DNA of 45,543 nt, taken from Myxococcaceae bacterium. GTDB taxonomy: Bacteria > Myxococcota > Myxococcia > Myxococcales > Myxococcaceae. Positions 1,135 through 24,223 of this stretch are shown piece by piece (within the stretch, counting starts at the first letter, position 1; every line of letters begins with the position of its first letter). The translations under genes were made by a program, and so were the position numbers. Where the stretch lies: positions 1-45,543 of the forward strand of contig RPRB01000019.1 of the NCBI GenBank assembly GCA_003818285.1. Direction: 5' to 3'. The notes under the pieces were generated by a model. It did not search any database and was not told the DNA's origin. It saw only the letters and a list, made by a program, of their open reading frames with translations.

Positions 1135-1151
1135 GGTTCGGTTTTCTCAAC

Positions 1152-6178: not shown

Positions 6179-6185
6179 CTCCTCG

Positions 6186-7079
6186 ATGCGCATCACCGTC
6201 ACCGGAGCCAACGGTCTCGTCGGTAGCCGCCTCTGCCGGTGGCTGGTGGTGCAGGGGCACACGGTCACGGCGGTGGCCCGGGGTGAGCGCCGCACCGTCG
6301 GGGACTTCGACTACCTCAGCTGCGACCTGGCAGACCCCGAGGGCGTCGCCCGCGCGATGTCCACCGGGCGGCCTGAGGTCGTCGTCCACACTGCGTCGAT
6401 GACCGAGGTCGACGCCTGCGAGCGGAATCCCGACGCAGCCTGGGCCGCCAACACACTCGCCGCCGCGCACGTCGCGCGGCATGCGCGGGCCGGCGGCGCC
6501 CACCTGGTCCACGTCTCGACCGACTACGTTTTCGACGGTCACGACGGCCCGTACGACGAGGAGGCCCGTCCGAACCCCTCCGGCGTCTACGCCCGGACCA
6601 AGTGGCTCGGGGAGGAGGCCGTCCGGCTGCTCGCGGGCAGCTGGGCCATCGCCCGCACCGCGGTGGTGTACGGCTACCCGCCCTCGCAGCGGCCCAACTT
6701 CGGCTCGTGGCTCCTCGGCACCCTCCGGGAGGGCAAGACGGCACGCCTCTTCGTCGACCAGTACGTCTCTCCCAGCCTCGCGCTCAACGTCGCGGAGCAG
6801 CTGGCCGAGCTCGCCGAGCGCCGCCTCCCGGGAATCTGGAACGTGGCGGGCGCCGAGGTGGTCAACCGGATGGAGTTCGGGGAAGCTTTGGCGGACGTGT
6901 TCGGTCTCGATCGCCGGCTGCTCACCCCCAGCAAGCTCGCCGACGCGGGCATGGCCAGCCCGCGCCCGCCGAGGAGCGGTCTGCGGGTAGACAAGGCGCT
7001 GGGTGCGCTGAGAGCCCGGCCGCTCGGCCTGAGCGCCTCGCTCGAGCAGTTCCGCGCCGAGGCGGAGGGACGGGTGTGA
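6186..7079 (+). CDS. rfbD: dTDP-4-dehydrorhamnose reductase
   Basis: 297 residues. It performs the last step of dTDP-L-rhamnose synthesis, NAD(P)H reduction of dTDP-4-keto-L-rhamnose. It is an extended [12 protein letters not shown] (residues 6-14) binds the dinucleotide, STDYVFDG near residue 111 and the YARTK catalytic pair near residue 134 match RmlD. The [15 protein letters not shown] segment near residue 218 matches the C-terminal substrate domain. It lies between rfbB and rfbA; its TGA stop overlaps the GTG start of rfbA. The order B-D-A-C is common in rhamnose clusters. Confidence 0.92.
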
Positions 7080-7957
7080 AGGGAATCATCCTGGCTGGCG
7101 GCTCCGGAACGCGGCTCTATCCACTGACCCGCGTGGTCAGCAAGCAGCTGCTCCCGATCTACGACAAGCCGATGGTCTACTACCCGCTGAGCACCCTGAT
7201 GCTCGCGGGCATCCGGGACATCCTCGTCATCTCCACCCCACAGGACCTGCCGCGCTTTCGCGAGCTGCTCGGAGACGGCCAGCAGTGGGGGCTCTGGTTC
7301 ACCTATGCGGAGCAGCCGCGGCCCGATGGCCTGGCGCAGGCCTTCATCATAGGCCGCAACTTCGTGGGCACGGACCGCGTCGCGCTGGTCCTCGGCGACA
7401 ACATCTTCCACGGGCACGGGCTCCCGGAGAAACTCAAGGCTGCCGCCGCGCGCTCCACGGGTGCCACCGTGTTCGCCTATTACGTGCGCGATCCGGAGCG
7501 GTACGGCGTGGTGGAGCTGGGCCCCGACGGACGCGCGCTCTCCATCGAGGAGAAGCCCAAGGCTCCCCGCTCGAGCTACGCCGTGACCGGGCTCTACTTC
7601 TACGACAACCGGGTGCTCGACATCGCCTCGCGCCTGAAGCCCTCGGCCCGCGGCGAGCTCGAGATCACCGACGTGAACCAGGCGTACCTCGAGGGTGGTG
7701 ACCTCCACGTGCAGGTGCTGGGCCGCGGCTTCGCCTGGCTGGACACCGGCACCCACGAGTCGCTCCAGAACGCCTCCACCTTCATCGAGATCGTCGAGCG
7801 CAGGCAGGGGCTCAAGGTCTCCTGCATCGAGGAGATCGCCTTTCGTATGGGGTACATCGGGCCGGACCAGCTACGCGCGCTGGCCGACCCGATGCGGAAG
7901 AACGAGTACGGGCAGTACCTGCTCGACCTGCTCGAAAACCGGGGAGCCATCGGATGA
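7076..7957 (+). CDS. rfbA: Glucose-1-phosphate thymidylyltransferase
   Basis: 293 residues, the usual RmlA length. It makes dTDP-glucose from glucose-1-phosphate and dTTP, opening the dTDP-rhamnose route. The nucleotidyltransferase signature [11 protein letters not shown] sits at residues 8-18, [16 protein letters not shown] follows directly, LGDNIFHG near 105 holds the metal-binding Asp, and the IEEKPKAP segment near 158 is family-typical. I start it at GTG 7076, which overlaps the rfbD stop as GTGA and gives an N-terminus VKGIILAGG that matches family members. Its own stop overlaps the rfbC start by ATGA. Confidence 0.95.
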
Positions 7958-8505
7958 ATGTCGTGCCCACCGAGCTTCCGGAGGTGCTGATCCTCGAGCC
8001 GAAGGTGCACGGGGACTCCCGCGGCTTCTTCTACGAGACATTCCAGTCGAACCGCTACGCCGAGGCCGGGATCTCCGGTCGCTTCGTCCAGGACAACCTC
8101 TCGCGCTCCGTGCGCGGCACCCTGCGCGGACTGCACTTCCAGGAGCCGAGGGCCCAGGGGAAGCTGGTGCAGGTGCTCCGGGGTACGGTGTGGGACGTGG
8201 CGGTGGACGTCCGGCGTGGCTCGCCGCGGTTCGGCCGCTGGGTCGCGCTGGAGCTCTCCGAGACCACGCCGCGCCAGCTGTGGATCCCGCCGGGCTTCGC
8301 CCACGGGTTCTGCGTGCTCAGCGAGTCGGCGGACTTCTTCTACAAGTGCACCGAGCTCTACGCGCCGGAATGCGACCGGAGCGTCGCCTGGAACGATCCG
8401 GCCATCGGCATTCCCTGGCCTGTGAATGAGCCGCTCCTCTCGGCGAAGGACCGCGCCGCTCCACGGCTCGCGGACGCTCCCGTGCTGCCCGCCTTTGCCG
8501 GTTGA
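7954..8505 (+). CDS. rfbC: dTDP-4-dehydrorhamnose 3,5-epimerase
   Basis: 183 residues, a standard RmlC cupin. It epimerises C3 and C5 of dTDP-4-keto-6-deoxyglucose. Visible hallmarks are [10 protein letters not shown] near residue 22, the LRGLHFQ segment with the catalytic His near residue 61, [15 protein letters not shown] near 80, and [15 protein letters not shown] near 110. [13 protein letters not shown] contains the aromatic and Tyr positions of the active site. It overlaps rfbA by four bases. With rfbA, rfbB and rfbD it completes the pathway, so this locus can supply its own activated rhamnose. Confidence 0.95.
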
Positions 8506-8506
8506 C

Positions 8507-10555
8507 GTGCGCGAGCTGCTCCCGGACTGGCTGCTCTCGCCCGCCTACGCGTTCCGGCGCGCGTTCCTGCCCCGGCACGGCTCTTTCCGGCTGACCCGCG
8601 ACGGCGAGGGCCCCTTCCGGCTCTCCCCGGCCACGGGGCGGTTGCCGCACGGCCGGGTCCTGCTCCGGCCCTCCGCCTGGCCGACCTGGGATGCGCTCGA
8701 GCTCGAGGGCTCGGTGTGGGTCTCCGGATCCTCCGTCCGCTGGTCGCGTTGGCTCGACCCGCCGGCCACGGGGGAGTCGATGGAGCTCGAGCTCCCCTAC
8801 GGCCTGCGGGACCTCGCGGCGCGGCTGCTGCCCGATCCCCTGGGGATACGCGGACTCGCGCTCGAGCTCGACGAGCTGGGGGCCGTGTGGGCCACCCGCG
8901 CCGCGCTCGCCGACGGACGCGGTGCGGTGCTTCGCGAGCTCCTCCACGCCGCCGACGGCCAGCGCCTGGCCCCCTCGCGGCTCGCGGCGGTGGCCTGGAC
9001 GGTCCGGGAGGGAATCGACGCCGCGGGCTACGCCCGCTGGCTCCGTACCTTCGAGACGCCCTCCGCTCCCGCGCTCGAACGGCTCCGCGCCCGCGCGTTG
9101 AGCTCCGGGCTCCGGGTCAGCATCGTCACTGCCCGGAGGACGGACGGGCCCGAGCTCGCGTCCCAGCTGCCGGGGAAGGTGGAGCTCGTGGGGTCCTTCG
9201 CGGACGCCCGCGGTGACATCCTCGTTCCGCTGGGCACCGGGGTGCGCCTCGCGCCACATGCGCTCCCGACGCTTCTCTGCGTCTTCCAGGAGCGGCCGGC
9301 GGTCACGCTCCTCCACGCCGACCACGATCGCGCGGAGGCAGGCAGCCGGGGCCACCCCGAGCTCAAGCCGGTGCTCGGCCCCGAGCTGTTTCGCAGCCGG
9401 AACGTGCTCCGGGGACTGGTCGCCGTCCGGCGCTCCGGGATGCCGGAGCCGAGCGACCCGAGACTCGACGACGCGGGCCTCTACGCCTGGGGGCTCGCCT
9501 GCACCGCCGGGCTCCTCCCGGAGAGCATCGTGCGTGTGCCGGTCGTTCTCGCGACGCTCGAGGCGCGTCTGGAGATCGACGAGGACGGTGAGCGCACCGC
9601 GCTCGCGCAGCATCTCGGCCGCACGGGAGTCCAGGCCGAGGTGGCCCCGGGCCTCGCCCCCGGCCTGCATCACGTGCGCTACCGCCTGCCTGCGCCCGCT
9701 CCCCGGGTCACCCTCGTCGTGCCGACCCGCAACGCCCGGGCGCTGGTCGAGACCTGCGTGCGGAGCGTCCGGCGACTCACCCGGTACCCGAGCTACGAGA
9801 TCCACCTCGTGGACAACGGCAGCGACGCGCCCGACGCGCTGGCCGCGTTCGACGCCCTGGCGCAGGCCGGGGACGTGGTGCTCCACCGGGACCCGCGGCC
9901 GTTCAACTTCTCGGCGCTGAACAACGCCGCGGTCGGGAGGACCGAGGCCGACGTGGTGTGCCTCATCAACAACGACGTCGAGGCGCTCCACCCCGAGTGG
10001 CTCGAGGAGATGGTCTCGGTGGCGCTGCAGCCGGGCGTGGGTGCCGTCGGCGCGAAGCTCTTCTACCCGGATGGTCGCGTCCAGCACGGCGGCGTCCTGG
10101 TCGGACTGCACGGCGCCGCCGACCACGCCTACGCCGGCGCACCCGGAAATTCTCCGGGCTACGCCCAGCAGCTCCTCGTCCGCCGCGAGGTCTCGGCGGT
10201 CACCGCGGCCTGCCTGGTGGTGCGGCGCGCGCTCTACCTCGAGGTGGGCGGGCTCGACGAGGAGGCGTTCCCGGTCTCCTTCAACGACGTCGACTTCTGC
10301 CTCAAGCTCCGCGAGCGTGGCTACCGCAACGTCTGGACCCCCCACGCCCGTCTCATGCATCACGAGTCCGCCAGCCGGGGCAAGGCGCTCCGGCTCGAGC
10401 AGAAGGCCCGCGCCGACCGCGAGCTGGCCGCGCTCCGCACCCGCTGGGCGGACGCGCTGCTCGACGACCCGTACCACAGCCCCAACCTCTCGCTGAGCTC
10501 GAACGTTCCTCGACTTGCATGGCCTCCGCGAGAGCGGCGGCCCTGGTCCTTCTGA
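8507..10555 (+). CDS. Tandem-module GT2 glycosyltransferase
   Basis: 682 residues from GTG 8507. The C-terminal module (about residues 398-640) is a clear GT2 enzyme: VTLVVPTRNARALVETC, HLVDNGSD, NFSALNNAA, CLINNDVEAL (acidic metal site) and SFNDVDFCLKLRERGYRNVW. The middle part (about residues 190-390) reads like a second, degenerate GT2 copy: TLLHADHDRAEAG sits where related proteins have a YSDED-type site, followed by KPVLGPELFRSRNVL. Residues 1-180 are unassigned. The start is one base after the rfbC stop (TGA C GTG). An in-frame ATG at 8426 would overlap rfbC by 80 bases and is less likely. Probable role: adding a sugar to the surface glycan; the donor is unknown. Confidence 0.85.
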   Translation: MRELLPDWLLSPAYAFRRAFLPRHGSFRLTRDGEGPFRLSPATGRLPHGRVLLRPSAWPTWDALELEGSVWVSGSSVRWSRWLDPPATGESMELELPYGLRDLAARLLPDPLGIRGLALELDELGAVWATRAALADGRGAVLRELLHAADGQRLAPSRLAAVAWTVREGIDAAGYARWLRTFETPSAPALERLRARALSSGLRVSIVTARRTDGPELASQLPGKVELVGSFADARGDILVPLGTGVRLAPHALPTLLCVFQERPAVTLLHADHDRAEAGSRGHPELKPVLGPELFRSRNVLRGLVAVRRSGMPEPSDPRLDDAGLYAWGLACTAGLLPESIVRVPVVLATLEARLEIDEDGERTALAQHLGRTGVQAEVAPGLAPGLHHVRYRLPAPAPRVTLVVPTRNARALVETCVRSVRRLTRYPSYEIHLVDNGSDAPDALAAFDALAQAGDVVLHRDPRPFNFSALNNAAVGRTEADVVCLINNDVEALHPEWLEEMVSVALQPGVGAVGAKLFYPDGRVQHGGVLVGLHGAADHAYAGAPGNSPGYAQQLLVRREVSAVTAACLVVRRALYLEVGGLDEEAFPVSFNDVDFCLKLRERGYRNVWTPHARLMHHESASRGKALRLEQKARADRELAALRTRWADALLDDPYHSPNLSLSSNVPRLAWPPRERRPWSF

Positions 10556-10556
10556 C

Positions 10557-11369
10557 GTGGCCCGCCTCCGGATCGGCATCGTGCTGTTCGAGAGCTCGCG
10601 CGCCGAGCTCGAGCGGCTCGCGCGCTCGCTGAAGGCCGCCGAGTTCCCGCCGGACCTCCGGGTCGAGGTCCGCGCGCTGGACAACTCGCCGGACCGGTCG
10701 CTCGAGCCGGTGGTGCTCGCCCTCCTGGGGCAGGGCACCTACGTCTGGACCGGCGCAAACCGCGGCTTCGGCGCCACGCACAACCTCGGGATGCACGATG
10801 CCTTCTCGGCCGGCGCCGACGGCTACCTCTGCCTCAATCCCGACGCCGTGCTCCACCCCCGCTGCCTCCGGGAGCTGTGGACCACGGCGACCCTGCCCGA
10901 CACCGGGCTGGTCGACGCCCGCACCTTCCCCGAGGAGCACGCGAAGCCGTACGACCCGGAGACCGGCGACACCCCCTGGTGCACCGGCACCGCGCTGCTC
11001 GTCCGTCCCGCGGCCTTCGCCGCCACCGGTGGCTTCGATGAGGGCCTTTTCATGTACGGGGAGGACGTGGATCTCTCCTGGCGCGTCCGCGCGGCCGGCC
11101 TCGGCGTCCGGACCGCGCCCGGCGCCCTGGTCCACCACTGGGTCGAGCACCGCCCGCTCACCCGGGAGCGAGAGCTGCGCGTGCTCCGGAGCGCCGCCTA
11201 CCTCGGGCGGAAGTGGGGCGACGATCGCTTCGCCGAGCAGTACGAGCGACTCTACCGGGTGCGCGCCGGGCGGGAGCCGGTGCTCGAGCCGCCGCCGCCC
11301 GTGCCCCCTGCCACCCGCCGCTTCGCGGACCTCGCGCACGGCGTGCGCTTCGCGAGGTCGCGCTGGTGA
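10557..11369 (+). CDS. GT2 family glycosyltransferase (rhamnosyltransferase-like)
   Basis: 270 residues from GTG 10557, again one base after the preceding stop (TGA C GTG). It is a compact GT-A enzyme: RIGIVLFESS strand 1, ALDNSPD, GANRGFGATHNLG, CLNPDAVLHP (the DxD-equivalent position is NPDA) and LFMYGEDVDLSWRVRAAG. This pattern is shared with WbbL/RfbF-type rhamnosyltransferases and COG1216. The nearby dTDP-rhamnose genes make L-rhamnose a reasonable donor, but that is inference. An alternative ATG at 10515 lies inside the previous gene. The stop overlaps the next gene's GTG. Confidence 0.85.
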   Translation: MARLRIGIVLFESSRAELERLARSLKAAEFPPDLRVEVRALDNSPDRSLEPVVLALLGQGTYVWTGANRGFGATHNLGMHDAFSAGADGYLCLNPDAVLHPRCLRELWTTATLPDTGLVDARTFPEEHAKPYDPETGDTPWCTGTALLVRPAAFAATGGFDEGLFMYGEDVDLSWRVRAAGLGVRTAPGALVHHWVEHRPLTRERELRVLRSAAYLGRKWGDDRFAEQYERLYRVRAGREPVLEPPPPVPPATRRFADLAHGVRFARSRW

Positions 11370-12118
11370 GCCCGGCTCCCCGAGTCCACGTCCACCTCAT
11401 CTCCTGGACCGACGAGCCGTGGGATCTCGAGGAAAGCCTCTTCTCGCTGGTCACCCAGGAAGGCGTGACGGGCACGGTCTCCGTGTCCGTCCCTCCGTCG
11501 CTCGAAGCGCACGCTCGCGATGCCTGTGCCAGGCTCGCTCGCCTCGGGGGTGCGGTCGAGCTCCGGCCGGGCACGCCCCCGCGCTGGGCCCCCGAGGCCG
11601 AGGCGGTCACGGTCTGGGTCGCGGGCACGGTCGCCACTCCGGACCATCTCGCTCGCGCGCTCTCCTCGAGCGGAGCGGCGGGCGCCCTCGTCGTCGCTCC
11701 CGCTCGCCGCGTCCTCCGCCGACCCGTCCCCGGGCGCCCGCCGTACGTGGTGAGCAAGACCCGGCGCTTCACCTCGTCGATGCCCTTCCTGGCCGAGCTC
11801 GAGCGCGATCCAGCCTTCCTGGGCCGATGCCTCGTCCCCGCCGCCCATGCTCCGGGCTGGCTGCCCGGCCCCCCCGAGGAGCACCGCCGCTGGGCCGCGG
11901 AGGCCTGGGCCGCCGGATCCGTCACCCGCGTCCCGGGTCCCCCGGCGGTGGATCTCCCGGATCTGCGCCCGGACCGAAGACTCCGCTCGGCCGACGACCT
12001 GCGCGATACCCTGGCCGACCTGCGCTACCAGGGACCCCGCTGGCTCGAGCGCCGCGCGCTACTCGTCTTCGACCGCCTCCGCGGGCTCTACCACCGCCTC
12101 CGTAACGGGGATCACTGA
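11366..12118 (+). CDS. Unidentified GT-locus protein with a GT-A-like N-terminus
   Basis: 250 residues from GTG 11366, overlapping the preceding GT2 gene by GTGA. I do not recognise a named family. The first 90 residues (VHVHLISWTDEPWDLEESL, then SVSVPPSLEAHARDACARL) look like the opening strand-helix units of a GT-A glycosyltransferase, but no DxD-type acidic site is evident. YVVSKTRRF near residue 128 is a possible phosphate-binding basic patch. It closes the plus-strand operon and its last 7 bases overlap the 3' end of the convergent membrane-protein gene. It may be an inactive or accessory glycosyltransferase partner; function not assigned. Confidence 0.65.
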   Translation: MSPAPRVHVHLISWTDEPWDLEESLFSLVTQEGVTGTVSVSVPPSLEAHARDACARLARLGGAVELRPGTPPRWAPEAEAVTVWVAGTVATPDHLARALSSSGAAGALVVAPARRVLRRPVPGRPPYVVSKTRRFTSSMPFLAELERDPAFLGRCLVPAAHAPGWLPGPPEEHRRWAAEAWAAGSVTRVPGPPAVDLPDLRPDRRLRSADDLRDTLADLRYQGPRWLERRALLVFDRLRGLYHRLRNGDH

Positions 12119-13461
12119 GGCTGGAAGAGGTTCAGGCGCCGGGCCTCGAGGAAGTCGAGCTTCTCCTGCATCCGCGTCGCGGGAGGATCCGGGTACACCG
12201 GAAAGGCGGTGTCGCCGTCACAGAGGTGGATGTCGTGCCGCTGCCGGTAGCACGCCGCCCAGCGCCGCTTCCCATCGGCATACCGCTGCCCCATCACCTC
12301 CTCGCCGCGGACGTTGAACGTGCGCAGCGTGATCAGCACCAGCACCGGGGAGAGGACGGCCCACCGCGCCGACGCCCGCGCCCGGGTCCGCGCCGCGATG
12401 ACCACCGCCACCCAGCCGGGAACCACGTAGGGGACGTAGCGTGCCGACCCGGCGCTTCCGGGCCCCAGGCACACCCGGCCCACGGCCGTGTTCAGAGCGA
12501 AGAGGCAGCTGAACCCCAGCAGCAGGGCCAGCACCCGACCTGCCGGCTCGTCCCGCCGGAACAGCCGCAGGAGGGCCCAGGCACAGAGAGCCAGGACGCC
12601 CAGGGCCACGCCACGCGCGAGCCACGTCCGCACACCGCCGAGTCGGTGCATCCCCAGGGGGCGCGCGAGCACGAAGCCGAGATAGTCGAGGTACTCCAGC
12701 GGGCGTGGGTGAGGAAACCGGAAGCACTCCACCGCGGGGACGAAGCGCCAGTTCAAGAAGAAGGCCGCCAGGGCTGCGGCGGACAGGACGAGGCCGAGCA
12801 CGGCCGCCCACCGGCGGCGCACGTCTCTGCCGGCGTGAACCCACTCGGAGAGGAACAGCAACGGGTTCACCAGTCCGGCGAAGAAGCCGAAGCCGGTGAA
12901 GGTGGCCAGCCCACCGACGACCCCGCAGGCAACCGCCCGCTGCACGGGCTCCCGTCGTGTCCACGCGAGCGCCAGCACGAAGATCAACGCCATCGGGATG
13001 GGCCCGTGCGCGGGATTGGAGGTGCCGACGAAGAGCTCCTCCAGCCCGCCACCGAGGCAGAGCAGGGGAGCTGCGACGTCGGTCCATGAGGGTGAGCCCG
13101 TCGTCCGGCGGACCGTGGCCCAGGCGAGGGCCGCGGCCGCGATGACGATCGACGCCGAGACCAGCGCCTCCGCCCGGGTGCTCCACCCGGTCGCCGGAAG
13201 CACCCACGCGAGCAGGAGGCCCCCCAGGCCCTGACGATGCGGCCCGTGCTGCAGATCGAACTGCGCCCAGACTCCCGCTCCCCGGAACAGCGGATCGAGG
13301 AAGTCCCACTGGTCCCAGTAGAGGACGTCCACCGCGTGGCGCTGCACGTACAGCAGGAGCCGGACCGCCAGCGCGGCGAGGACCACCAGCGGCAGGGCCC
13401 AGGCGAGGACCTCTCCCGCTCCCCGGCGGCGACTCAGCCCGCCGTCGGCTCGATCGACCAT
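12112..13461 (-). CDS. Polytopic membrane protein of the polysaccharide export operon
   Basis: 449 residues with about nine or ten hydrophobic segments, the first near residue 18 (LAWALPLVVLAALAVRLLL). A conserved-looking first loop contains YWDQWDFLDP and LQHGPHRQG, acidic and His residues placed as in the first periplasmic loop of GT-C type glycosyltransferases. The C-terminal 60 residues are soluble and contain two Cys. It is last in the minus-strand operon; ATG 13461 lies 28 bases inside wzt. It could be a lipid-linked glycosyltransferase that decorates the exported chain, or a polymer-modifying membrane enzyme. The family was not identified, and the GT-C idea is inference. Confidence 0.7.
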   Translation of the reverse strand: MVDRADGGLSRRRGAGEVLAWALPLVVLAALAVRLLLYVQRHAVDVLYWDQWDFLDPLFRGAGVWAQFDLQHGPHRQGLGGLLLAWVLPATGWSTRAEALVSASIVIAAAALAWATVRRTTGSPSWTDVAAPLLCLGGGLEELFVGTSNPAHGPIPMALIFVLALAWTRREPVQRAVACGVVGGLATFTGFGFFAGLVNPLLFLSEWVHAGRDVRRRWAAVLGLVLSAAALAAFFLNWRFVPAVECFRFPHPRPLEYLDYLGFVLARPLGMHRLGGVRTWLARGVALGVLALCAWALLRLFRRDEPAGRVLALLLGFSCLFALNTAVGRVCLGPGSAGSARYVPYVVPGWVAVVIAARTRARASARWAVLSPVLVLITLRTFNVRGEEVMGQRYADGKRRWAACYRQRHDIHLCDGDTAFPVYPDPPATRMQEKLDFLEARRLNLFQPQ

Positions 13462-14687
13462 CGATGCACCGGCGCCAGCAGCCCCGACGAGTCCTGCGCC
13501 CGCACCGCGAACCCGTGCAGCCCCCGGTGCACGTCGTACACCGCGCCGCCGGCGTTCCCGAGCGACAGGTCCACCAGGTAGTTGCCGTCCCCAAGGCCGA
13601 GCCGCGGCATCTCCAGCGTGAGCGTCGCCGCCTCCGAGTCCGGCAGCTTCTCGGTCGTGCTCCACACCAGCGTTCCGCCGTCGGTGCGGAGGCTCAGCTC
13701 GAGCTGCGGGGCCTCCACCGCCCCGTACCGCCGGTAGCGAGCCAGCAGCCGAAACGGTGCATCCGCCGAGAAGACGTGCTGGGGCCCGTCCCGGCCACGG
13801 ATCTCCACCCCGCTCAGCTCCGCCGCGAAGCTTCCCCACCGTCGCCCGGGCTCCGCCGGGGGGCCGGAGCGCGGCTGCACCGGAACCGCCGCGCGGGGCA
13901 CGTGCTGCTCCAGTCCCGCGACCTCGGCCTCGGCCACCGCCGCCCGGTACGCCGCCACCACGTCCACCGGGTTTCCCGAGACCTTGAGCTCTCCCGCATC
14001 GAGCCAGGCCGCCTGGTCGCACCGGCGCTGCAGCGTCCCCAGGTCGTGGGTGACGAGGAGGATGGTCTTCCCCGCCTTCCGGAACTCCTCCATCTTCGCC
14101 GCGCTCTTCCGGCCGAAGTGCTCGTCCCCCACGCTGAGGATCTCGTCGATGAGGAGGATCTCCGGATCCACGTGGGTCGCCACGGCGAAGGCCAGCCGGG
14201 CGTACATCCCGCTGGAGTAGGTGCGCACCGGCTCGTCGATGAAGTCTCCGAGCTCGGAGAACTCGATGATCTCCTCCATCCGACCGCGGATCTCCCGCCG
14301 AGACATCCCGAGGATGATCCCGTTCACGAAGATGTTCTCCCGCCCCGAGAAGTCGGGGTGGAAGCCGGCCCCCAGCTCGAGCAGCGCCGAGATCCGGCCG
14401 TGGACCTCCACCGTCCCGCTGGTGGGGGTGTAGATGCCGGTCACCAGCTTGAGCAAGGTGGACTTCCCCGAACCGTTCCGCCCCACCAGCCCGAACGTCC
14501 TTCCCCGCGGCACCGACAGGGAGACGTTGCGCAGCGCCGGGATGATCGACGACGGGGCCTCGGGCCGCTTCTGTCGCTTCAGCCAGCGGACCAGCTCGCT
14601 CTTCAGCGTGGTGTGCTCCCGCCGGATGGTGCTCTTCCGGAAGCTCTTGCTCACCCCGGTGAGCACGATGGCGTTGGTGGTGGACAT
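13434..14687 (-). CDS. wzt: Polysaccharide ABC exporter ATPase with C-terminal glycan-binding extension
   Basis: 417 residues. Residues about 1-250 form the nucleotide-binding domain: Walker A GRNGSGKST near 68, signature YSSGMYARLAFA near 156, Walker B ILLIDEI near 176 and the switch His in LVTHDLG near 211. Residues about 280-417 are a beta-rich extension (FRLLARYRRYG, LVWSTTEKLPD, GLGDGNYLVDLSL) matching the Wzt C-terminal domain. In E. coli O9a that domain recognises the modified non-reducing end of the glycan. Its start shares one base with the wzm stop (TGATG), so both subunits are coupled. It energises export of lipid-linked polymer across the inner membrane. An in-frame extension upstream would only translate wzm out of frame. 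Confidence 0.93.
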   Translation of the reverse strand: MSTTNAIVLTGVSKSFRKSTIRREHTTLKSELVRWLKRQKRPEAPSSIIPALRNVSLSVPRGRTFGLVGRNGSGKSTLLKLVTGIYTPTSGTVEVHGRISALLELGAGFHPDFSGRENIFVNGIILGMSRREIRGRMEEIIEFSELGDFIDEPVRTYSSGMYARLAFAVATHVDPEILLIDEILSVGDEHFGRKSAAKMEEFRKAGKTILLVTHDLGTLQRRCDQAAWLDAGELKVSGNPVDVVAAYRAAVAEAEVAGLEQHVPRAAVPVQPRSGPPAEPGRRWGSFAAELSGVEIRGRDGPQHVFSADAPFRLLARYRRYGAVEAPQLELSLRTDGGTLVWSTTEKLPDSEAATLTLEMPRLGLGDGNYLVDLSLGNAGGAVYDVHRGLHGFAVRAQDSSGLLAPVHRWSIEPTAG

Positions 14688-15466
14688 CAGACGAGCTCCG
14701 CGAACTCCTCGCGCCGCCGCTCGAACACCCGCGCCGCGATGGCCAGCAGCACCACCGAGCCCAGCGCCACGACTGCCAGCCCCCGCGGGTGCGGCCAGCG
14801 GTGCTCGTAGAAGATGCCCTGGTACGAGGTGGTGATCACCGCCATCGGATTCGCGATCAGGTAGAGTCGCCGGTACGGCTCGGGCACGGCGTTGGGGACG
14901 TAGAGCACCGGGGTCACGAAGAACCAGAGGGTCAGCACGTTGGCCACGATGTGCTGCAGGTCCCGGAAGCGCACGTTGAGCGCCGAGATCACGAACGTCA
15001 CCCCCAGCGTGAACACCAGCTGGACCAGCAGCACCACCGGGAACGCCAGGGCGTGGACGTCCGGCCAGATCCCCACCAGCCCTCCCAGCCCCACCATCAG
15101 CGGGAGGGAGAGCAGGTAGTTGACCAGGTTCGTCGCCACCACCGTCGTCGGAAGCACCTGGGCGGGGAAGCGCACCTTGGTCAGCAGATCCCGCCGGTCG
15201 CTGATGGTGCTCGCGCCGCTCCCGACCGATGTGGAGAACCACAGCCACGGCAGGAGCCCCACGAAGATGAAGTAGGTGTAGTGGGGGATGTTGCTCCGCT
15301 GGATGATGCCGAAGACCAGCCCATACACCGCCATCAGCAGCAGCGGGTTGACGAACGTCCAGAGGAAGCCCAGCGCCGAGCCCCGGTAGCGCGCCTTCAG
15401 CTCGCGCTGGGTGAGGTTCCAGAGCAGCGCCCGGTACTGCCAGAGCTCCCGCAGGTTGCGGATCAT
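14687..15466 (-). CDS. wzm: Polysaccharide ABC exporter permease
   Basis: 259 residues, normal for the ABC-2 type permease family. After an amphipathic N-terminus (LWNLTQRELKARYRGSALG, a signature of Wzm/TagG proteins) six hydrophobic segments are visible, beginning FLWTFVNPLLLMAVYGLVF and ending VALGSVVLLAIAARVF. Together with Wzt it forms the channel for an undecaprenyl-linked O-antigen or teichoic-acid-like polymer. Its start overlaps the stop of the small coiled-coil gene (ATGA) and its stop overlaps wzt, so the whole operon is tightly coupled. Confidence 0.93.
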   Translation of the reverse strand: MIRNLRELWQYRALLWNLTQRELKARYRGSALGFLWTFVNPLLLMAVYGLVFGIIQRSNIPHYTYFIFVGLLPWLWFSTSVGSGASTISDRRDLLTKVRFPAQVLPTTVVATNLVNYLLSLPLMVGLGGLVGIWPDVHALAFPVVLLVQLVFTLGVTFVISALNVRFRDLQHIVANVLTLWFFVTPVLYVPNAVPEPYRRLYLIANPMAVITTSYQGIFYEHRWPHPRGLAVVALGSVVLLAIAARVFERRREEFAELV

Positions 15467-15897
15467 CCGCGGCGCTTCCTCCGGGGCTTCCGCGGAGCCA
15501 AAAGGGCGGCCCGGTCGCCGTTTCGCTGCGCCGCCTCCAGCGCCTCCAGCCGGGCCCGGAGCTGGATCACCTCCGCGGACAGCTGAGCGTCCGCCTCCCG
15601 GACCCGGGCGTTGAAGCGTCGCTGGCGCTCCAGCACCTCGTCGATGAGCGACTGGCAGGCGAGACGGAACACCCGGCGGACGAGGGAGGCCGGCGCTCCG
15701 CGCTCCGTGGCCGGGATGGGCACCGTCGGGTCCTCGTCCTCCTCCAGCGCGCGGACCAGAAAGGAGAGCGGCTCCAGCACCGGCTCGGGCTCGGCCTCCA
15801 CCGGGAGCGCCTCGTCGCGGATGCCGCGGGCCTCGAGCCGTTCGCGCGCCGCCCGGAGCAGGGCGCCGGCGTCGATGTCGCGTCCGAGCAGCTTCAT
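15463..15897 (-). CDS. Small coiled-coil protein between a GT4 gene and wzm
   Basis: 144 residues, soluble, with four-base ATGA overlaps at both ends (GT4 gene upstream, wzm downstream). The N-terminal half is acidic (ALEEDEDPTVPIP); the C-terminal half has a heptad pattern, SLIDEVLERQRRFNARV followed by LRARLEALEAAQRN, and ends in a basic tail (RKPRRKRRG). The RQRRFN segment resembles short helical regions found at the N-termini of some O-antigen methyltransferases and glycosyltransferases. I do not recognise an enzyme domain. Its position suggests an adaptor or scaffold linking glycan synthesis to the exporter. Start ATG 15897 gives the overlap; longer forms would run into the upstream gene. 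Confidence 0.7.
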   Translation of the reverse strand: MKLLGRDIDAGALLRAARERLEARGIRDEALPVEAEPEPVLEPLSFLVRALEEDEDPTVPIPATERGAPASLVRRVFRLACQSLIDEVLERQRRFNARVREADAQLSAEVIQLRARLEALEAAQRNGDRAALLAPRKPRRKRRG

Positions 15898-18119
15898 CGC
15901 CTCACCATCGCATCCATCTCCTCGCGGTAGGCGTCTACCACCCGTTCCCATCGGTAGCGGGACGCGTACCGCCGGGCCGCCCGCGCCATCGCCGCGCGCT
16001 CCCGCCGTACCCGGGCCACTGCCTCGACGAACGACGCCGCGTCCTGGAACGTACCGCCGGCCCGGCTCCGCTCCACGTGTCCCCGCAGCACGTCACTCAC
16101 CGCGTTGCCCAGCATCGGCGTGCCCACCGCGAAGGCCTCCAGCGCGAGGAGGGACAGGCTCTCTCTCGGCGACGGGACGACCGCTGCCAACGCCCCGGCC
16201 AGCCCGTCCCACTTGTCCTGCTCGCTCACCCTGCCCAGCATCCGCACTCCTTCCGCCCGCACGTCCATGCTCGCGTCGCCTGCCAGCACCAGGGTCGGCG
16301 CATCCGGCAGCGCCGCCCGGAGGCGTCGGTACCCCTCGAGGAGCCCCGGAATTCCCTTTCCGCGCTCCACCCGACCCACGTAAAGCAGGTAGTCGCCGGG
16401 AAGCTCGAAGCGCGTCCGGAAGCGCCCGGGCTCGACCGCCGGCGGCTCCACCCCCACCCCTACCACGCGTGCCCGGGCGTGCCGCGGGAATCGTCGGTCG
16501 ATGAGCTCCAGCTCCTCGGGCGTGAGCAACAGGAGCGCCCGGGGCCGCTCGAACACCTCCGCGTAGGCGTCGAATCTCAGCGGCTCCTCGTCATGCGCCG
16601 TCGGAACCAGGAGCGTGCGGTCGCCCACCAGGGGCACCGACCACGCCGTGGAGACGAACAGGTAAGTGAAGGCGACGAAGCCGTCGTACTCCCCGCCGCG
16701 CTCGGACAGATGGCGCCAGAGGCCGGGGAGGATCGGTCCCTGGAGCGCCATCCAGGCCTCCTCCTCGCCCAGATCGAGCGACTGGCCGAAGACCCGCCGC
16801 GAGCGCGCGTTCAGTTCCCGCATCGGCCGCGGGCGAAGGTTGGTGAAGCGCAGGACGGACACCCCGTCGACCCGCGACTCCCCGGCGGGCAGCGCGTTGG
16901 CCCAGGTCAGGTGGTCGGTGGCGCAGCTGGTCAGCACCTGGATGTCCCAGTGAGGCCGCAGTCGCGCCACCACCTGCCCCGCGAGCGCCTCGGCACCTCC
17001 GGTGATGCCCGGCCCGTAGCGCTGCACCACGATGCCCACCCGGGGCTTGCGGCGTGCCGGACGCCGCGGGCGGGGTGGCCTCCCGAGACCGGCGCTCTCC
17101 AGCGCCGCCGAGAGCCGTTCCTCGGAGCGCCCGGGGCCCAGGACCTGGAGCCTCCGCCGCTGTCCGCTGAGCACCCGCCCCCGGAGCCGCGGGTCCGTTC
17201 CGAGCCGCATCGCCACCTCCGCGAGGAGCGCGAACCGCTTCTCGTCGAAGGCGACTCCGGCGCCGCCCAGCGTCGCGGTCACCGCGCCGGCGGCGTAGGC
17301 CAGGACGGGAACCTCGGACGCCATCGCCTCGAGCAGCCCCACGCCCGAGCCGTCCTGCTCGCGCATGGACACGAGGACGGAGCCGCTCCGGTACACCGCG
17401 ACTCGCTCGCCGTGGCTGACCTCGCCGAGCATCGTCACGCCCGGCGTTCGCGCCGCCTCGGACTCGAGCGCGCCGAGGGTGGGGTCGACCGCGCCGGCAA
17501 TCACCAGCCGGGCGTCGGGGCGGATGCGGAGCACCTCCCGGTGGAGCGCGAGCAGGTCCTCGAGATGGGCCTCGCGCGTCATCGGGCCCACGCTCACCAG
17601 GGTCAGCGCCCCCGAGTCGAGGCGAGCCCGGAGCGCGGGGTCCGCCCGCTCCTCCGCGAACCGCTCGGCCTCGACGAAGAGCGGGACGGTGTGCACCTCG
17701 CCGTACCCGGAGCGGGACAGCTCGGACGACGCGAATTCGGAGAGGCCGATGGCAACCGACACGTGCGCCGCCATTCCCGAAAGCTGGGCCCTCCCTGCGA
17801 GCACGGACCGCTCCGCCGGCGTGCCGCGGTGCAGCCGCAGCGAGGGGAGGCCGTGGAACACCACCCCGCGCCGGCCTTGCGTGTGAAGCAGCCGGGACGG
17901 AAGGCTGCTTCCGATCGCGTGGTGAAGGAGCACCCAGTCCCCGGGCTGCACCCGCAGGGCCTGCAGCGGCTGCACCAGCGCCTCCGTTCCCGGCACCCGG
18001 CTCGCTCCGTACAGGCCACCCCAGTGGCCCAGGCGCCGGAGCAGCGCCCGGAACTGCACCGCCGCCTGCGCGGTCGCGTCGCCGAGGCGAAAGTGGGGGA
18101 CCAGCTGGTGGACGGCCAT
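15894..18119 (-). CDS. Tandem GT4 glycosyltransferase (two GT-B modules)
   Basis: 741 residues, about twice the usual GT4 length. The first module (about 1-345) begins MAVHQLVPHFRLGDAT and carries VVFHGLPSLR, SVGPMTREAHLEDLL and DGSGVGLLEAMASEVPVLAY, a GT4 E-x7-E-like region. The second (about 360-741) begins VGIVVQRYGPGITGGAEALA, a classic GT4 N-terminus with the GG acceptor loop, then LLYVGRVERGKGIPGLLEGY and SPRESLSLLALEAFAVGTPML. Both halves keep the C-terminal nucleotide-sugar site, so two linkages may be made by one chain. It is the first gene of the minus-strand exporter operon, 23 bases from a divergent GT4 gene. Sugar specificity is unknown. Confidence 0.88.
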   Translation of the reverse strand: MAVHQLVPHFRLGDATAQAAVQFRALLRRLGHWGGLYGASRVPGTEALVQPLQALRVQPGDWVLLHHAIGSSLPSRLLHTQGRRGVVFHGLPSLRLHRGTPAERSVLAGRAQLSGMAAHVSVAIGLSEFASSELSRSGYGEVHTVPLFVEAERFAEERADPALRARLDSGALTLVSVGPMTREAHLEDLLALHREVLRIRPDARLVIAGAVDPTLGALESEAARTPGVTMLGEVSHGERVAVYRSGSVLVSMREQDGSGVGLLEAMASEVPVLAYAAGAVTATLGGAGVAFDEKRFALLAEVAMRLGTDPRLRGRVLSGQRRRLQVLGPGRSEERLSAALESAGLGRPPRPRRPARRKPRVGIVVQRYGPGITGGAEALAGQVVARLRPHWDIQVLTSCATDHLTWANALPAGESRVDGVSVLRFTNLRPRPMRELNARSRRVFGQSLDLGEEEAWMALQGPILPGLWRHLSERGGEYDGFVAFTYLFVSTAWSVPLVGDRTLLVPTAHDEEPLRFDAYAEVFERPRALLLLTPEELELIDRRFPRHARARVVGVGVEPPAVEPGRFRTRFELPGDYLLYVGRVERGKGIPGLLEGYRRLRAALPDAPTLVLAGDASMDVRAEGVRMLGRVSEQDKWDGLAGALAAVVPSPRESLSLLALEAFAVGTPMLGNAVSDVLRGHVERSRAGGTFQDAASFVEAVARVRRERAAMARAARRYASRYRWERVVDAYREEMDAMVRR

Positions 18120-18142: not shown

Positions 18143-19246
18143 ATGTGTCAGGGTGCGCCGCCCGTGGAGCTCACCGTGGCCCTCGACGCGACTCTGTGGG
18201 ACGAGCCGATGACCGGCATCGCCCGCTACGGCCACGCAGTGTCCGGCGCGCTCGAGGCCCGCGGTGTCCGCGTGCTCCGGGTCGGCGCCCGCCGCTCCGG
18301 CGAGCTGCCCCGCCGCGTCCGCAGTCGCACGCTCCACACGCTCGCCGAGCTCCCGCGGATGCTCCCGCGCAGTGGTGCGTCCGTGTTCCAGGCGGTGGGC
18401 AACGTCGACCTTCCGCTGCTCCGGGTGCCGGGCGTGGCGTTCGTGCTCACCGTGCACGATCTCATTCCTCTCACCTCGCCCCGGACCGTCTCCTGGGCCT
18501 TCCACTGGCAGTTCCGGCTGTGGCTCCAGCGGAGCCTCCAGGTCGCCGACCACGTGGTCTGCGTGAGCGCGTGGACCCGCGACCAGCTGCTCCGCCGCCA
18601 CCCCGAGCTGGACCCCGCCCGCGTGTCCATGGTGCACAACGGGGTGGATCACGTGCAGCCACGACCGCTCGATGCGGTGTCGCAGGCGTGGCTGCGCAGC
18701 CTGGGGCTCCCGGAGCGCTGGGTCCTCTTCGCCGGCGCGCTCGACGCCCGGAAGAATCTGGAGCTGGTGCTCGATGCGCTGGAGCGGCTCGGTCCGCGCG
18801 CGCCCGCGCTGGTCCTGGCCGGGCAGCGCTGGTACGGCTCGGGTCCGATCGAGAAACGCATCGGGGGACTCCGGGCGACCGGCCTGGACATCCGCCCGCT
18901 CGGGTACCTCGCCGAGCCGCTCCTCTGGGGTCTCATGGCCGCCGCCCCGGTCTTCGTCTTTCCCTCGCGCGACGAGGGATTCGGCCTGCCGCCGCTCGAG
19001 GCCATGGCGCTCGGGACCCCCGTCGTGGTCAGCACTGCTGCGGCGCTTCCCGAGGTGTGCGGGGAGGCGGCGGTCCAGGTCGGGCCCGACGACGCCGCCG
19101 GTCTCGCCTCCGCGCTGCAGCGGCTCCTGGAGGATCCCGCGGAGCGCACGCGCCGCGGAGAGGCCGGCCGCGAGCGGGCACGCGCGTTCCGGTGGGACGC
19201 TGTGGCCGAGCACCTGGTGAAAATCTACCGCGCCCTCGCCACCTGA
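18143..19246 (+). CDS. GT4 family glycosyltransferase
   Basis: 367 residues, a single GT-B enzyme. Visible are TGIARYGHAVSGAL (acceptor loop, residues about 24-37), TVHDLIPLTSPRTV near 111, VSAWTRDQL, LFAGALDARKNLELVLDAL near 195 and FPSRDEGFGLPPLEAMALG near 273, the E-x7-E sugar-nucleotide site. It resembles mannosyltransferase-type GT4 proteins of O-antigen loci. It diverges from the tandem GT4 gene with a 23-base gap, so the two promoters must overlap or lie within coding sequence. ATG 18143 is used; GTG 18164 is an alternative that removes seven residues. Confidence 0.88.
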   Translation: MCQGAPPVELTVALDATLWDEPMTGIARYGHAVSGALEARGVRVLRVGARRSGELPRRVRSRTLHTLAELPRMLPRSGASVFQAVGNVDLPLLRVPGVAFVLTVHDLIPLTSPRTVSWAFHWQFRLWLQRSLQVADHVVCVSAWTRDQLLRRHPELDPARVSMVHNGVDHVQPRPLDAVSQAWLRSLGLPERWVLFAGALDARKNLELVLDALERLGPRAPALVLAGQRWYGSGPIEKRIGGLRATGLDIRPLGYLAEPLLWGLMAAAPVFVFPSRDEGFGLPPLEAMALGTPVVVSTAAALPEVCGEAAVQVGPDDAAGLASALQRLLEDPAERTRRGEAGRERARAFRWDAVAEHLVKIYRALAT

Positions 19247-19276: not shown

Positions 19277-20566
19277 GTGGTAGGCTTTCTCGCCGTGCAC
19301 GTCACTCGGATCGCGCTCGCGACTATCTTGCTCCTCGGGTCCGTCTCCGCCGCCCAGGGGCCCGATACCTACTTCGCTCCCATCGTGGACCGGACCGGGG
19401 ACAACACGGTTGGGGCCAACGCCCTTCAGACCTCGATCTGGCTCTCCGACCCGGGCACGGACGCGGGCCTGTCGCTGCTCTTCGGAACGGGAGGCGGCTC
19501 CTCGGCATCCTTCGGACTGGACGGCCTCGCTCCGGTCGCGGTGAGCGGCTTTCCTCCCCAGGCCGACGCGGTGGCGACCGCGGCGGGCGTGCTCGTGGGA
19601 GGAAGCTACCGGACGCTGCTGGCCGTGAGCTCGAACGGCAGCATCCTCTTCGGAACGATCGAATCCGGGGCTTTCCGGTCGGCCGGAGTCCCGGTCACTC
19701 CCATTCCCTCCGGGACCCTGGTGGCGCTCTCCGCCGTGCCGGACGGCGGGGCGGCGCTCCTGGTCTCGGACGGCACGCTGATCACCCGCTGGGACCTGGA
19801 CCTCTCGACAGGAGCCGTCAATGCATCGAGGGGATTCAGCGTCTCGGCGACTCCCACGAGCGGCGGCACGTTCGATCAGCCCAATACTCTGTTCTTCGAC
19901 GGCCTCCGGAACCTCGGCTTCGTCGGTGGACGGATCCTGGGGGACGTGTACCAGTTCGATCCGAATCTCGACGCCGGGGCTCCCACCGTGTTCGATCCCG
20001 GGCAGGTCAGCCAGGGTCGCCTCGCAGCGCCGGTGACCGGGATCACCCTCTACCCAGCCATCGGCGCAGGCTACCTCCTCGTCGCCAGCGCAAAGGGCAT
20101 CACGTTCTACAATCGCAATCTCGCCAATCCGCTGCCCTCCGCATTCCGGGTCATTCCCATCGACTCCGAAGGGCCCATCACCACGCCCGCCGGGGTGGCG
20201 CTCACGAACCTCCCCGCCGGACCCTTGCTCCCCCTGGGGGCGATTGCCGTCGGCGACCTCACGCATCGGAACCTGGCGCTCCTGAGCTGGGGTGCCCTGA
20301 GCGTGCAGATCGATGCGGGCCTCCCTGTCGACACCACGGACCCCCGCGGGACCCCCGGCGACGGCGGCGCGCCTGATGGCGGGGGCTCCGATGCCGGGGG
20401 CGGCGGCGGGGGTGGCCCCAGCGGACCTCCCGGAGGCGGCCCCGGCCCCGGGATCCCGGTGGACCACCCCTCGAGCTGTGCCTCGGCCGCCGGACCACCG
20501 ACGCTGGTGGCCTTGGTCGCCGGGCTGGGGGCGCTGGCCTCGCGCCGGCGCCGCCAACGCCGCTGA
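19277..20566 (+). CDS. Secreted phytase-like beta-propeller protein with MYXO-CTERM-like tail
   Basis: 429 residues from GTG 19277; GTG 19295 would give a tidier signal peptide (RIALATILLLGSVSAAQG). The body resembles beta-propeller 3-phytases: LQTSIWLSDPGTDAGLSLLFGT parallels the N-terminal phytase blade, FDQPNTLFFDG and AGVALTNLPAGPLLPLGAIAV parallel the later blades. Several acidic Ca-binding positions of true phytases seem missing, so activity is doubtful. A Gly/Pro/Asp-rich linker (about residues 350-395) leads to a Cys, a hydrophobic helix (LVALVAGLGALA) and an Arg-rich end, the arrangement of MYXO-CTERM sorting signals. This predicts surface sorting with anchoring or release. The link to the neighbouring glycan locus is unclear. 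Confidence 0.75.
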   Translation: MVGFLAVHVTRIALATILLLGSVSAAQGPDTYFAPIVDRTGDNTVGANALQTSIWLSDPGTDAGLSLLFGTGGGSSASFGLDGLAPVAVSGFPPQADAVATAAGVLVGGSYRTLLAVSSNGSILFGTIESGAFRSAGVPVTPIPSGTLVALSAVPDGGAALLVSDGTLITRWDLDLSTGAVNASRGFSVSATPTSGGTFDQPNTLFFDGLRNLGFVGGRILGDVYQFDPNLDAGAPTVFDPGQVSQGRLAAPVTGITLYPAIGAGYLLVASAKGITFYNRNLANPLPSAFRVIPIDSEGPITTPAGVALTNLPAGPLLPLGAIAVGDLTHRNLALLSWGALSVQIDAGLPVDTTDPRGTPGDGGAPDGGGSDAGGGGGGGPSGPPGGGPGPGIPVDHPSSCASAAGPPTLVALVAGLGALASRRRRQRR

Positions 20567-20619
20567 TCCACTGGCCTCCCCGGAGGGTGTCAGGGGCTCC
20601 TGATTGATCCAGGGGCACC

Positions 20620-20988
20620 ATGCTCTACAAGGTGACGCCCGCCCTCGTGCCGCCGGCGCACCGGCCCCGCGCCGCGGAGGGCACGCGCCCGAAGAAGCGC
20701 CGGGCGAGCGCGGTCTTCGACGCCGACGGGCTCGAGGTCCTCATCACGCTGATGTGCCTCAAGTGTCGCCAGATCCGTCCCCTGGCGCAGTTCGGGCTGC
20801 GCAAGATGCCGGACGGCGCCATCCGCAATCAGCCGTGGTGCCGTGGCTGCCGTGGCGCCGCGACGCCGAAGAAGCGCCAAGAGGCCACCGAACCGACCGA
20901 GGCCGAGACCCCGAGCGAGGTGAGCGCCTCGGCGCCCGCCGTTGCGGAGCCCCAGCTCGTCTCGCTTCCCGGCACCAGCGAGAGCTGA
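20620..20988 (+). CDS. Small two-CxxC (zinc-ribbon-like) protein
   Basis: 122 residues. The centre (about residues 46-82) carries CLKC, then LAQFGLRK, then CRGC, about 31 residues apart. This spacing resembles the C..C-x-K-P-L-x-x-F...C..C zinc-binding fold seen next to HNH or endonuclease VII domains, but no nuclease motif follows. The N-terminus is basic (RPKKRRAS) and the last 40 residues are a disordered-looking Glu/Ser/Ala tail. It stands alone between the phytase-like gene and the aceA leader. A weak AGGGG precedes the ATG. It may bind nucleic acid; that is inference. Confidence 0.6.
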   Translation: MLYKVTPALVPPAHRPRAAEGTRPKKRRASAVFDADGLEVLITLMCLKCRQIRPLAQFGLRKMPDGAIRNQPWCRGCRGAATPKKRQEATEPTEAETPSEVSASAPAVAEPQLVSLPGTSES

Positions 20989-22941: not shown

Positions 22942-24030
22942 TCAGCCGCGAACCAGCCGGACCCGCGGCCGTGCACCGTCGCTGGCCGGCTGTGCCGGAG
23001 GCCGCGCGACGACGTACTTGTACCCGGTCCGGGCGCTGGCGCTCGCCCCGCGCGGTCCGATGCGCACGTCCTTCGGAACGTAGAAGACCTCGCCGTCCTC
23101 CAGGAGCCGCGCGCCGCGGACCTGGAGGTGGCAGCCGAAGAGCAGCGCGGACTCGGCGCTGTCCAGCTCCACCTCGCTGCCGGGGTGGACGATGTCGATC
23201 TCCAGATCGTCCCCGCCCGCCACCGCCATCCCCAGCGTCCGGTAACGGGTCCGATCGGGGGTGAGCGCCCAGTCGATGAAGGCCCCGAACGGGCGTGAGT
23301 CGACGTCGTCCGGCTCGCCCAGCCGGCTCCTCGCCTCCTCGGCCTCGAGCAGGAGCCGCCCCGCGTGCTCGAGCAGGAGGTACGTTCCGCCCGCGTCCAG
23401 CGCTGCGCGCAGCACTCGCACCAGGAGGCGCGTCGACCCCGCCGGGGACCAGGGATCTCCCGCCTCGGGCCCCAGCAGCCGGCGCTCCTCGACGGGGAGC
23501 ACGCCCGCGGGGAGCACTTCCCACAGGGTTGGCGGCAGCGGCCCGGCGGCGGGCACGAGGCGCCGCTCCAGCCCGGCGGGGTCCTCGGCCCGCCGCTCGC
23601 GGATCAACAGATGCGCTCCCGGCCAGCGTGCCTCGACCAGCGTGCCTCCCTCGGGCAGCGCCCTCGCCGTGAGCCGCGCACCCTGGGGAAGCCCTCGCCC
23701 CAGCGCCGCCTGCCAGCGGGGCCCGCTCGCTCCGAGCTCGACCGGGACGAGCACGCTCGCCCATCCGAAGGGGCGCGCCGGCGGCGCTTCCGCGCGCACC
23801 GGGTGCCCGGGCAGCGTGAGCCGCACGAGGCTTCCGTCCGCCCCGAGCTCCGCCACCGCGGAGAGCCCGGCCGCGGGATGGAAGCCCACCGCTTCGGAGC
23901 GGGTGAAGGGAAAGGTCCGACCCCCGCCGTCGATGACCCCGCGCGCTCCGTCCCAGTGGACGATCTGGACAGGCAGCAGGGTGGGGGAGGAGCCGGTCGC
24001 GGGGCCCGGGGGGTTCCCGGGCCCCGTCAC
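22942..24030 (-). CDS. Hypothetical protein with an N-terminal OB/cold-shock-like segment
   Basis: 362 residues from GTG 24030. The first 60 residues (VQIVHWDGARGVIDGGGRTF, then FTRSEAVGFHPAAGLSAV) have the Gly-rich strand pattern of an OB-fold, cold-shock-like domain. The rest is a mixed alpha/beta domain with DSRPFGAFIDWALTP, RYRTLGMAVAGGDDLEID and a C-terminal strand region; this weakly recalls DUF4261-type proteins, but I cannot assign it. The frame stays open further upstream, but that part is the tRNA-Ala gene read as protein, so the start must be downstream of it. Convergent with the small membrane-protein gene. Confidence 0.7.
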   Translation of the reverse strand: MTGPGNPPGPATGSSPTLLPVQIVHWDGARGVIDGGGRTFPFTRSEAVGFHPAAGLSAVAELGADGSLVRLTLPGHPVRAEAPPARPFGWASVLVPVELGASGPRWQAALGRGLPQGARLTARALPEGGTLVEARWPGAHLLIRERRAEDPAGLERRLVPAAGPLPPTLWEVLPAGVLPVEERRLLGPEAGDPWSPAGSTRLLVRVLRAALDAGGTYLLLEHAGRLLLEAEEARSRLGEPDDVDSRPFGAFIDWALTPDRTRYRTLGMAVAGGDDLEIDIVHPGSEVELDSAESALLFGCHLQVRGARLLEDGEVFYVPKDVRIGPRGASASARTGYKYVVARPPAQPASDGARPRVRLVRG

Positions 24031-24049
24031 GGCATCACGACGAGGTGAG

Positions 24050-24122
<73 letters not shown>

Positions 24123-24223
24123 GGATGGCAGGGACGTGCGGCTCTATACGCCCCACCGGGGGCGTGTCAACGGACGCCCGGCTTTCGAGGACCGGTGCTT
24201 TCCTTTAGATTCCGCCACATTCG

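Follow-up and report, generated by a model that had tools for sequence, protein, structure and literature searches.

The open reading frame (ORF) at 19277-20566 of the window (the whole stretch of DNA analysed, 45,543 nt) encodes a divergent member of a family of phytase-like propellers that lacks the phytase residues and is usually paired with a nucleotidase gene. The reading that we favour, and consider rather probable, is that this gene is a syntenic, fast-evolving orthologue of a surface-sent pseudo-phytase family and that its product serves as a non-catalytic binding or docking propeller. The orthology by position and profile, the residue loss and the dN/dS below 1 were computed, and the common descent of the family from an active phytase is what we infer.

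The gene and its parts

The 429-aa ORF is located on the forward strand, with a GTG start codon at 19277 or 19295 and a stop codon ending at 20566. It was taken as coding because of its G+C by codon position (0.70/0.59/0.85), a syntenic orthologue in the genome of its congener G001 (hereafter the sister; 53-54% identical protein) and the pairwise dN/dS of 0.44. When its own genome (5.77 Mb, 502 contigs) was searched, the propeller gene was the single match. The following features were assigned:

15894-18119, reverse strand: double glycosyltransferase, divergent syntenic neighbour (locus comparison)
18143-19246, forward strand: GT4 glycosyltransferase, 30 bp upstream of the propeller, syntenic neighbour (locus comparison, Pfam)
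19277-20566, forward strand: coding sequence of the phytase-like propeller with a MYXO-CTERM-type tag, 429 aa (ORF call, NCBIfam match)
19277-19354, forward strand: predicted N-terminal signal peptide, ending ...VSAA|Q (read by eye from the sequence)
19358-20326, forward strand: beta-propeller body, residues about 28-350 (~320, beta-rich; NF045638 match to 16-426, hhalign, low-confidence model)
19898-19900, forward strand: Asp208, equivalent of TS-Phy D216, the sole acidic motif residue retained (alignment)
20327-20470, forward strand: Asp/Gly/Pro-rich linker (sequence; low pLDDT)
20474-20563, forward strand: putative MYXO-CTERM-type tail with Cys401 (20477-20479), hydrophobic helix and Arg cluster RRRRQRR (20543-20563) (TIGR03901 scores; C-terminal helix in the low-confidence model)
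20567-20619, no strand: 53-bp gap, the site of a 5'-nucleotidase-type gene in 18 of 22 loci; a remnant would not fit (locus comparison)
20620-20988, forward strand: small "MLYKVTP" ORF with CxxC...CxxC, conserved in position in 21 of 22 loci (locus comparison)

The A-Q at the predicted signal end was common to all 17 myxobacterial rows of alignment A2, and the low-confidence model of the window protein placed an N-terminal helix at the predicted signal position.

Family membership and fold

The initial annotation, made from the sequence alone, had described a phytase-like propeller, and the profile comparisons bore this out. The best NCBIfam model for the window protein was NF045638, "myxosortase-dependent phytase-like phosphatase", which matched residues 16-426 with 109 bits (E 2e-31), under its curated cut-off of 440 bits; the second match was TIGR03901 (MYXO-CTERM). 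A profile of the window and sister proteins was aligned by hhalign with three true phytases (probability 91.7%, E 8e-7, 229 columns) and with 11 canonical NF045638-type members (99.65%, E 4.5e-25, residues 17-426). When the window protein was scanned against Pfam, no family was found, PF02333 included; PF02333 was likewise absent from the whole window genome in a Pfam profile search, and phmmer against the PDB gave no match at E up to 1. An alignment with PF02333 and a check of the catalytic residues had been proposed beforehand: the window protein itself yielded no Pfam match to align, the catalytic residues were absent, and the canonical relatives pass the PF02333 model.

The fold was approached through a canonical member, which matched the Bacillus phytase 1poo by phmmer at E 8e-40. 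The canonical member of Archangium lansinium, with one phytase row among the four rows of its input alignment, was modelled at a mean pLDDT of 73.8, and a fold search with this model placed 3amr, 1poo and 1qlg first (E 5.5e-27 to 1.2e-25, target TM 0.86-0.87; next match 1e-9). The model of the window protein was poor (pLDDT 45) and its input alignment also included a phytase row; phytases were its top three fold matches (E 2e-10 to 5.5e-10; next 5e-6). The PDB profile match of alignment A2 to a phytase (E 5e-108) was discounted because that same phytase was contained in A2. Lack of any phytase-fold prediction had been named as an outcome against the propeller reading; what emerged was a fold assignment resting on homology and on the model of the canonical relative, with a poor model for the window protein.

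The window protein is a distant full-length relative of NF045638 and, by position, the orthologue of the family, since the neighbouring GT4 gene and small LYKVTP ORF are shared. It resembles NF045638 in its near full-length alignment, in the order of signal, propeller, Asp/Gly linker and MYXO-CTERM-type tail and in its gene neighbourhood, but differs in its score (109 against 440 bits), its one Cys in place of Cys-x-Cys, and the lack of D102, D308 and an adjoining nucleotidase. With the beta-propeller phytases (PF02333; TS-Phy, 1poo/3amr) it would share the six-bladed fold, as the models suggest for the canonical member and, weakly, for the window protein; it differs in lacking the YG, EGxxxD, DxEG and DG motifs and a Pfam match, and the aligned phytase rows carry no MYXO-CTERM tail.

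The NF045638 search covered 60 genomes, including that of the window. Among the matches listed (E to 1.9e-4), more than 200 of the 430 positions were covered in 24 genomes, all belonging to the window's own family, which supplied 36 of the 60; for the remaining 24 genomes, drawn from further families of the order, the matches listed reach the tail region only. The NF045638-type propeller is described here as a family found in one Myxococcota family.

The combination of a phytase-like propeller with a sorting tail is already known to NCBI as NF045638. This existing family, the residue loss in all sampled relatives and the absence from the window of the usual nucleotidase as next gene go beyond the initial annotation. 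Searches of open-licence PMC papers gave no report of such a pseudo-phytase family, of a loss of the catalytic residues in all its sampled members or of the usual 3' nucleotidase.

Loss of the phytase residues

The residue alignment comprised 25 myxobacterial propellers (14 canonical, nine diverged, the window and the sister) and three true phytases. Each of the 24 genomes in which NF045638 had a long match contributed one of the 25 propellers, and A. lansinium the last; three tandem propellers entered the tree, the conservation test and the residue counts without their C-terminal halves. In TS-Phy, K76, R122, K179, E227, D308 and others are positions that we take to contact Ca or phosphate. 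K76, R122, Y159, E211, E227, D258 and E260 were retained in 0/25 myxobacterial propellers versus 3/3 true phytases, with gaps scored as not retained (few such cells, including K76 in the window and the sister). The 12 sequences above the NF045638 cut-off, which are within the 25, also retained none of these seven residues. D314 was retained in one of 25 (half of a tandem protein, where the alignment is uncertain), and K179 in one of 25 propellers and two of three phytases.

The beta-propeller phytase motifs, as described in PMC12406696, are YG (159-160), EGxxxD (211-216), DxEG (258-261) and DG (314-315). EGxxxD and DxEG strings were found near the expected place in none of the 25 propellers, and YG and DG in one (L024); none of the four was near its expected place in the window protein. 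The window protein matched four of 24 TS-Phy positions (V101, D216, G261 and G315), and only one of the 13 acidic positions was still acidic, in agreement with the earlier proposal that the acidic Ca- and phosphate-binding residues had been replaced. In the 24-position comparison, where the C-terminal halves of tandem propellers were included, an Arg at position 122 was observed in one such half.

In the three phytases, the conservation of ten binding positions (nine scorable) was 0.96 versus a background of 0.63, and 0 of 10000 random draws reached 0.96. In the 25 myxobacterial rows, the ten positions scored 0.34 versus a background of 0.46; since they fall below background, no replacement site is under visible constraint there. 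The residue loss is not peculiar to the window gene and is common to all sampled relatives. That the window protein is not a phytase, as the initial annotation had suspected, is well supported. We envisage a beta-propeller phytase that lost its Ca- and phosphate-binding residues and kept its propeller, giving rise to a pseudo-phytase.

Sorting tail and proposed export

TIGR03901 (curated cut-off 20 bits) was the best model for the tail, which scored 17.1 bits when the whole protein was scanned and 22.1 bits in a six-frame search; in the latter, the window tail was third among ten tails with E up to 0.1. Cys401, the hydrophobic stretch and RRRRQRR were present and were conserved in the sister. 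The window tail has a single Cys; in alignment A1, the 11 canonical rows show Cys-x-Cys at this place. By hmmscan, other relatives scored 16.4 (L002), 19.8 (L080) and 12.7 (L076) bits and a canonical one 22.3 bits; the tandem protein of L083 had no TIGR03901 match. The tail thus resembles those of MYXO-CTERM surface proteins such as TraA in its Cys, hydrophobic helix and Arg cluster, together with the N-terminal signal, but differs in its single Cys and borderline score. The annotated Cys-helix-Arg tail was recovered in all its parts and in the six-frame score, but not in the whole-protein score, and a tail scoring outside MYXO-CTERM, which would have spoken against it, was not clearly seen. 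We read it as a borderline MYXO-CTERM-type sorting tail with a score at the threshold.

Three loci (L035, L036 and L037, of G026, G005 and G035) encode tandem propellers of 742-761 aa, in which two propeller halves share one CC-helix-Arg tail; a scan of one tandem propeller gave no TIGR03901 match at E up to 1.

By analogy with known families, the propeller would be exported by Sec through its N-terminal signal, its C-terminal helix would hold it in the membrane and a myxosortase would cleave at the Cys motif. The MYXO-CTERM model was tested for TraA in Myxococcus xanthus and, as described in PMC11980579, involves signal-peptide export, an inner-membrane hold, myxosortase cleavage and type II secretion as the transfer route; anchoring by a lipid is a step proposed in that paper. 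Display at the outer surface, as modelled there for MYXO-CTERM proteins (PMC11980579), would be the expected outcome, and the displayed propeller would most likely be a non-catalytic binding or docking module. In M. xanthus, MXAN_5326, a "putative phytase", is listed as enriched in outer membrane vesicles (OMV) in Table 1 of PMC4158809, and it may be an orthologue of the NF045638 propeller.

When the myxosortase core was searched for in the window genome, a fragmented assembly of 502 contigs, the best match had 37 bits against a cut-off of 100, and the sister had a match of 130 bits. The MrtX model scored 22 of 180 bits in the window genome. A CPBP intramembrane protease is encoded in the window genome at L093:740-1450 (G000:C297), with the Synerg-CTERM protease MrtS as its best match (59 of 130 bits); it is a possible stand-in for the missing myxosortase.

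The nucleotidase partner

The locus comparison covered 22 distinct loci (the window, 20 fetched stretches and A. lansinium). In 18 of these, the next gene 3' of the propeller was a 5'-nucleotidase-type homologue, with metallophosphatase and 5_nucleotid_C (5'-nucleotidase C-terminal) domains in the three copies scanned. A possible start codon of the nucleotidase lay -4 to +58 bp from the propeller stop in 17 of the 18 loci (110 bp in the other), and therefore the translation of the two genes is probably coupled. Five string patterns, among them the GNHE, G-x-x-H and GH[TS]H types, were used as marks of metallophosphatase motifs. The three named types occurred in every one of the 18 copies, and 10 copies had the full set of five; a valine disallowed by one pattern explains at least two of the misses. 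A lipobox-like string was found in nine of the 18 copies, whose starts are uncertain.

In most relatives, the propeller would probably be made together with the 5'-nucleotidase-type protein, so that the ancestral role was probably in extracellular phosphate or nucleotide scavenging. Conceivably, the propeller docks onto the adjoining 5'-nucleotidase or forms one of its subunits, and would retain the enzyme at the surface or supply it with substrate there. The adjacency in 18 of 22 loci, the closely spaced starts and the retained metallophosphatase strings are all in keeping with such a role, but either gene can occur where a close copy of the other is missing, as several genomes show. Four loci, those of the window, G001, G015 and G008, have no nucleotidase next to the propeller; G008 has a close nucleotidase on another contig. 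The propeller and nucleotidase often travel together but are separable, because in G028 and G010 a close nucleotidase has no adjoining propeller (the NF045638 matches listed for them are tails only) and because G000 (the window genome), G001, G015 and G029 have a propeller and distant nucleotidase homologues only. An obligate complex with the nucleotidase as a general rule was ruled out by these losses on either side. As the window lacks an orthologous nucleotidase, partnering that enzyme cannot be the present role of the window protein, and we regard the partner role as a real but minority prospect.

In the window genus, on the favoured reading of a binding or docking propeller, the nucleotidase would have gone from the locus and the propeller diverged on a long branch; with the nucleotidase gone, the propeller there must function on its own or through a different partner. 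The corresponding account for the whole family, namely a pseudo-phytase usually co-translated with a live nucleotidase, now a fast-evolving surface capture or recognition module whose partner was dropped in the window genus, falls a little short of an even chance in our estimation. The pairing offers a direct genetic test.

Gene neighbourhood and glycan genes

The MLYKVTP ORF was located 3' of the propeller in 21 of the 22 loci, the remaining contig being only 4.5 kb long; it had no significant Pfam or NCBIfam match. It also lies beside the nucleotidase in L098, a locus with no propeller. Upstream, 10 of 22 loci had the GT4 and double glycosyltransferase pair within the stretch that was fetched, at distances from the propeller that vary by several kb. 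PEGA and MopE-like genes were found instead in eight loci, all of the diverged group (domains checked in L083), and neither set was on the fetched stretch in four.

In the diverged loci L076-L080, L082, L083 and L085, a PEGA-domain gene is followed by a Cys-rich gene and then by the propeller; the Cys-rich gene of L083 has a MopE-like motif and an acidic double-disulfide repeat. In the window, a surface glycan island with RmlD, RmlC, WsaF-type and family 2 glycosyltransferases and an ABC-2 exporter extends over 1107-18119.

The propeller had been annotated as lying beside a glycan island, which is correct for the GT4 gene 30 bp upstream in the window, but the arrangement is not general. A propeller that acts as an adhesin or binds glycans, in connection with the adjacent O-antigen or exopolysaccharide genes, would fit the same-strand GT4 gene, the GT pair in 10 loci and the RmlC, RmlD, glycosyltransferase and ABC export genes of the window. 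The variable distance of the pair and its replacement or absence in the other 12 loci, however, weigh against it, and lectin propellers (4csd, 7e7u) appeared among the fold matches of the poor window model at E 2e-4 only. A tight link with glycan genes was not upheld; the link is weak, and we consider glycan binding unlikely.

The phosphatase name

NF045638 is named as a "phytase-like phosphatase", and the protein might still be a phosphatase, with an active site rebuilt on the propeller. Consistent with this, the PF02333 scores (cut-off 21) were 110-176 bits for canonical members and 47 bits for three of the diverged ones, and a nucleotidase-type gene is usually next. Among the retained positions, D216 was found in 22/25 propellers (14/14 canonical rows), D102 in 21/25 (canonical 12/14) and D308 in 12/25 (canonical 12/14), so that some old metal contacts (D102, D308) could survive in canonical members. 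In the window genus, however, D102 and D308 were each retained in 0/2, and the complete absence of the seven scored residues and an old site no more conserved than background make a rebuilt phosphatase decidedly unlikely. Because all relatives studied have lost the working residues, the "phosphatase" in the family's database name is probably wrong. NCBI names proteins by these models, and the curated name can spread "phosphatase" to myxobacterial proteins without a phytase active site. If this is right, phytase surveys relying on PF02333 matches alone would overcount the phosphate-releasing capacity of Myxococcota, and the family would be a set of surface proteins whose real ligand remains to be found.

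Evolution and selection

In a tree of 29 rows, the window pair (window and sister) formed the longest inner branch (1.89). The Nei-Gojobori dN/dS of the pair was 0.44 (53.9% identity; body alone 0.53), higher than the 0.13-0.34 of five neighbouring genes (71-88% identity; ICL row left out, as out of frame), and four canonical propeller pairs gave 0.24-0.52. Evolution of the propeller is fast yet constrained. A decaying relic in the window genus, with selection relaxed after loss of the nucleotidase, would account for the long branch and for an identity of 54% against 71-88% in the neighbours, but the open frame, signal and tail are kept in both species and both dN/dS values are below 1, making this the least probable of the readings considered.

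We also considered whether the family could stem from tandem phytases, by way of their inactive-looking N-terminal domain. In Marinomonas gallaica (L088:5242-7296), a tandem-domain phytase has all four motifs in its C-terminal propeller and none in its N-terminal one. The N-terminal domain resembles the window protein as a phytase-type propeller without the four motifs, but differs in that it shares a chain with a four-motif domain and groups with the three phytases (94/89, under the tree's own mark for firm support, on a long branch). Its scores against the family were also lower than those of TS-Phy, and this origin is unsupported, one such domain having been sampled.

Additional observations

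Two relatives (L060 and L061, of G007 and G027) also carry an ordinary beta-propeller phytase without a MYXO-CTERM tail; the one checked (L060) has all four motifs. Elsewhere in the window, the reverse-strand ORF at 22942-24156, as called, overlaps the tRNA-Ala gene at 24049-24122, and its true start is probably downstream of the tRNA. Short matches of DUF_win22942 outside L081 were rejected as protein and taken as tRNA, since they fall where the tRNA-Ala gene overlaps the ORF.
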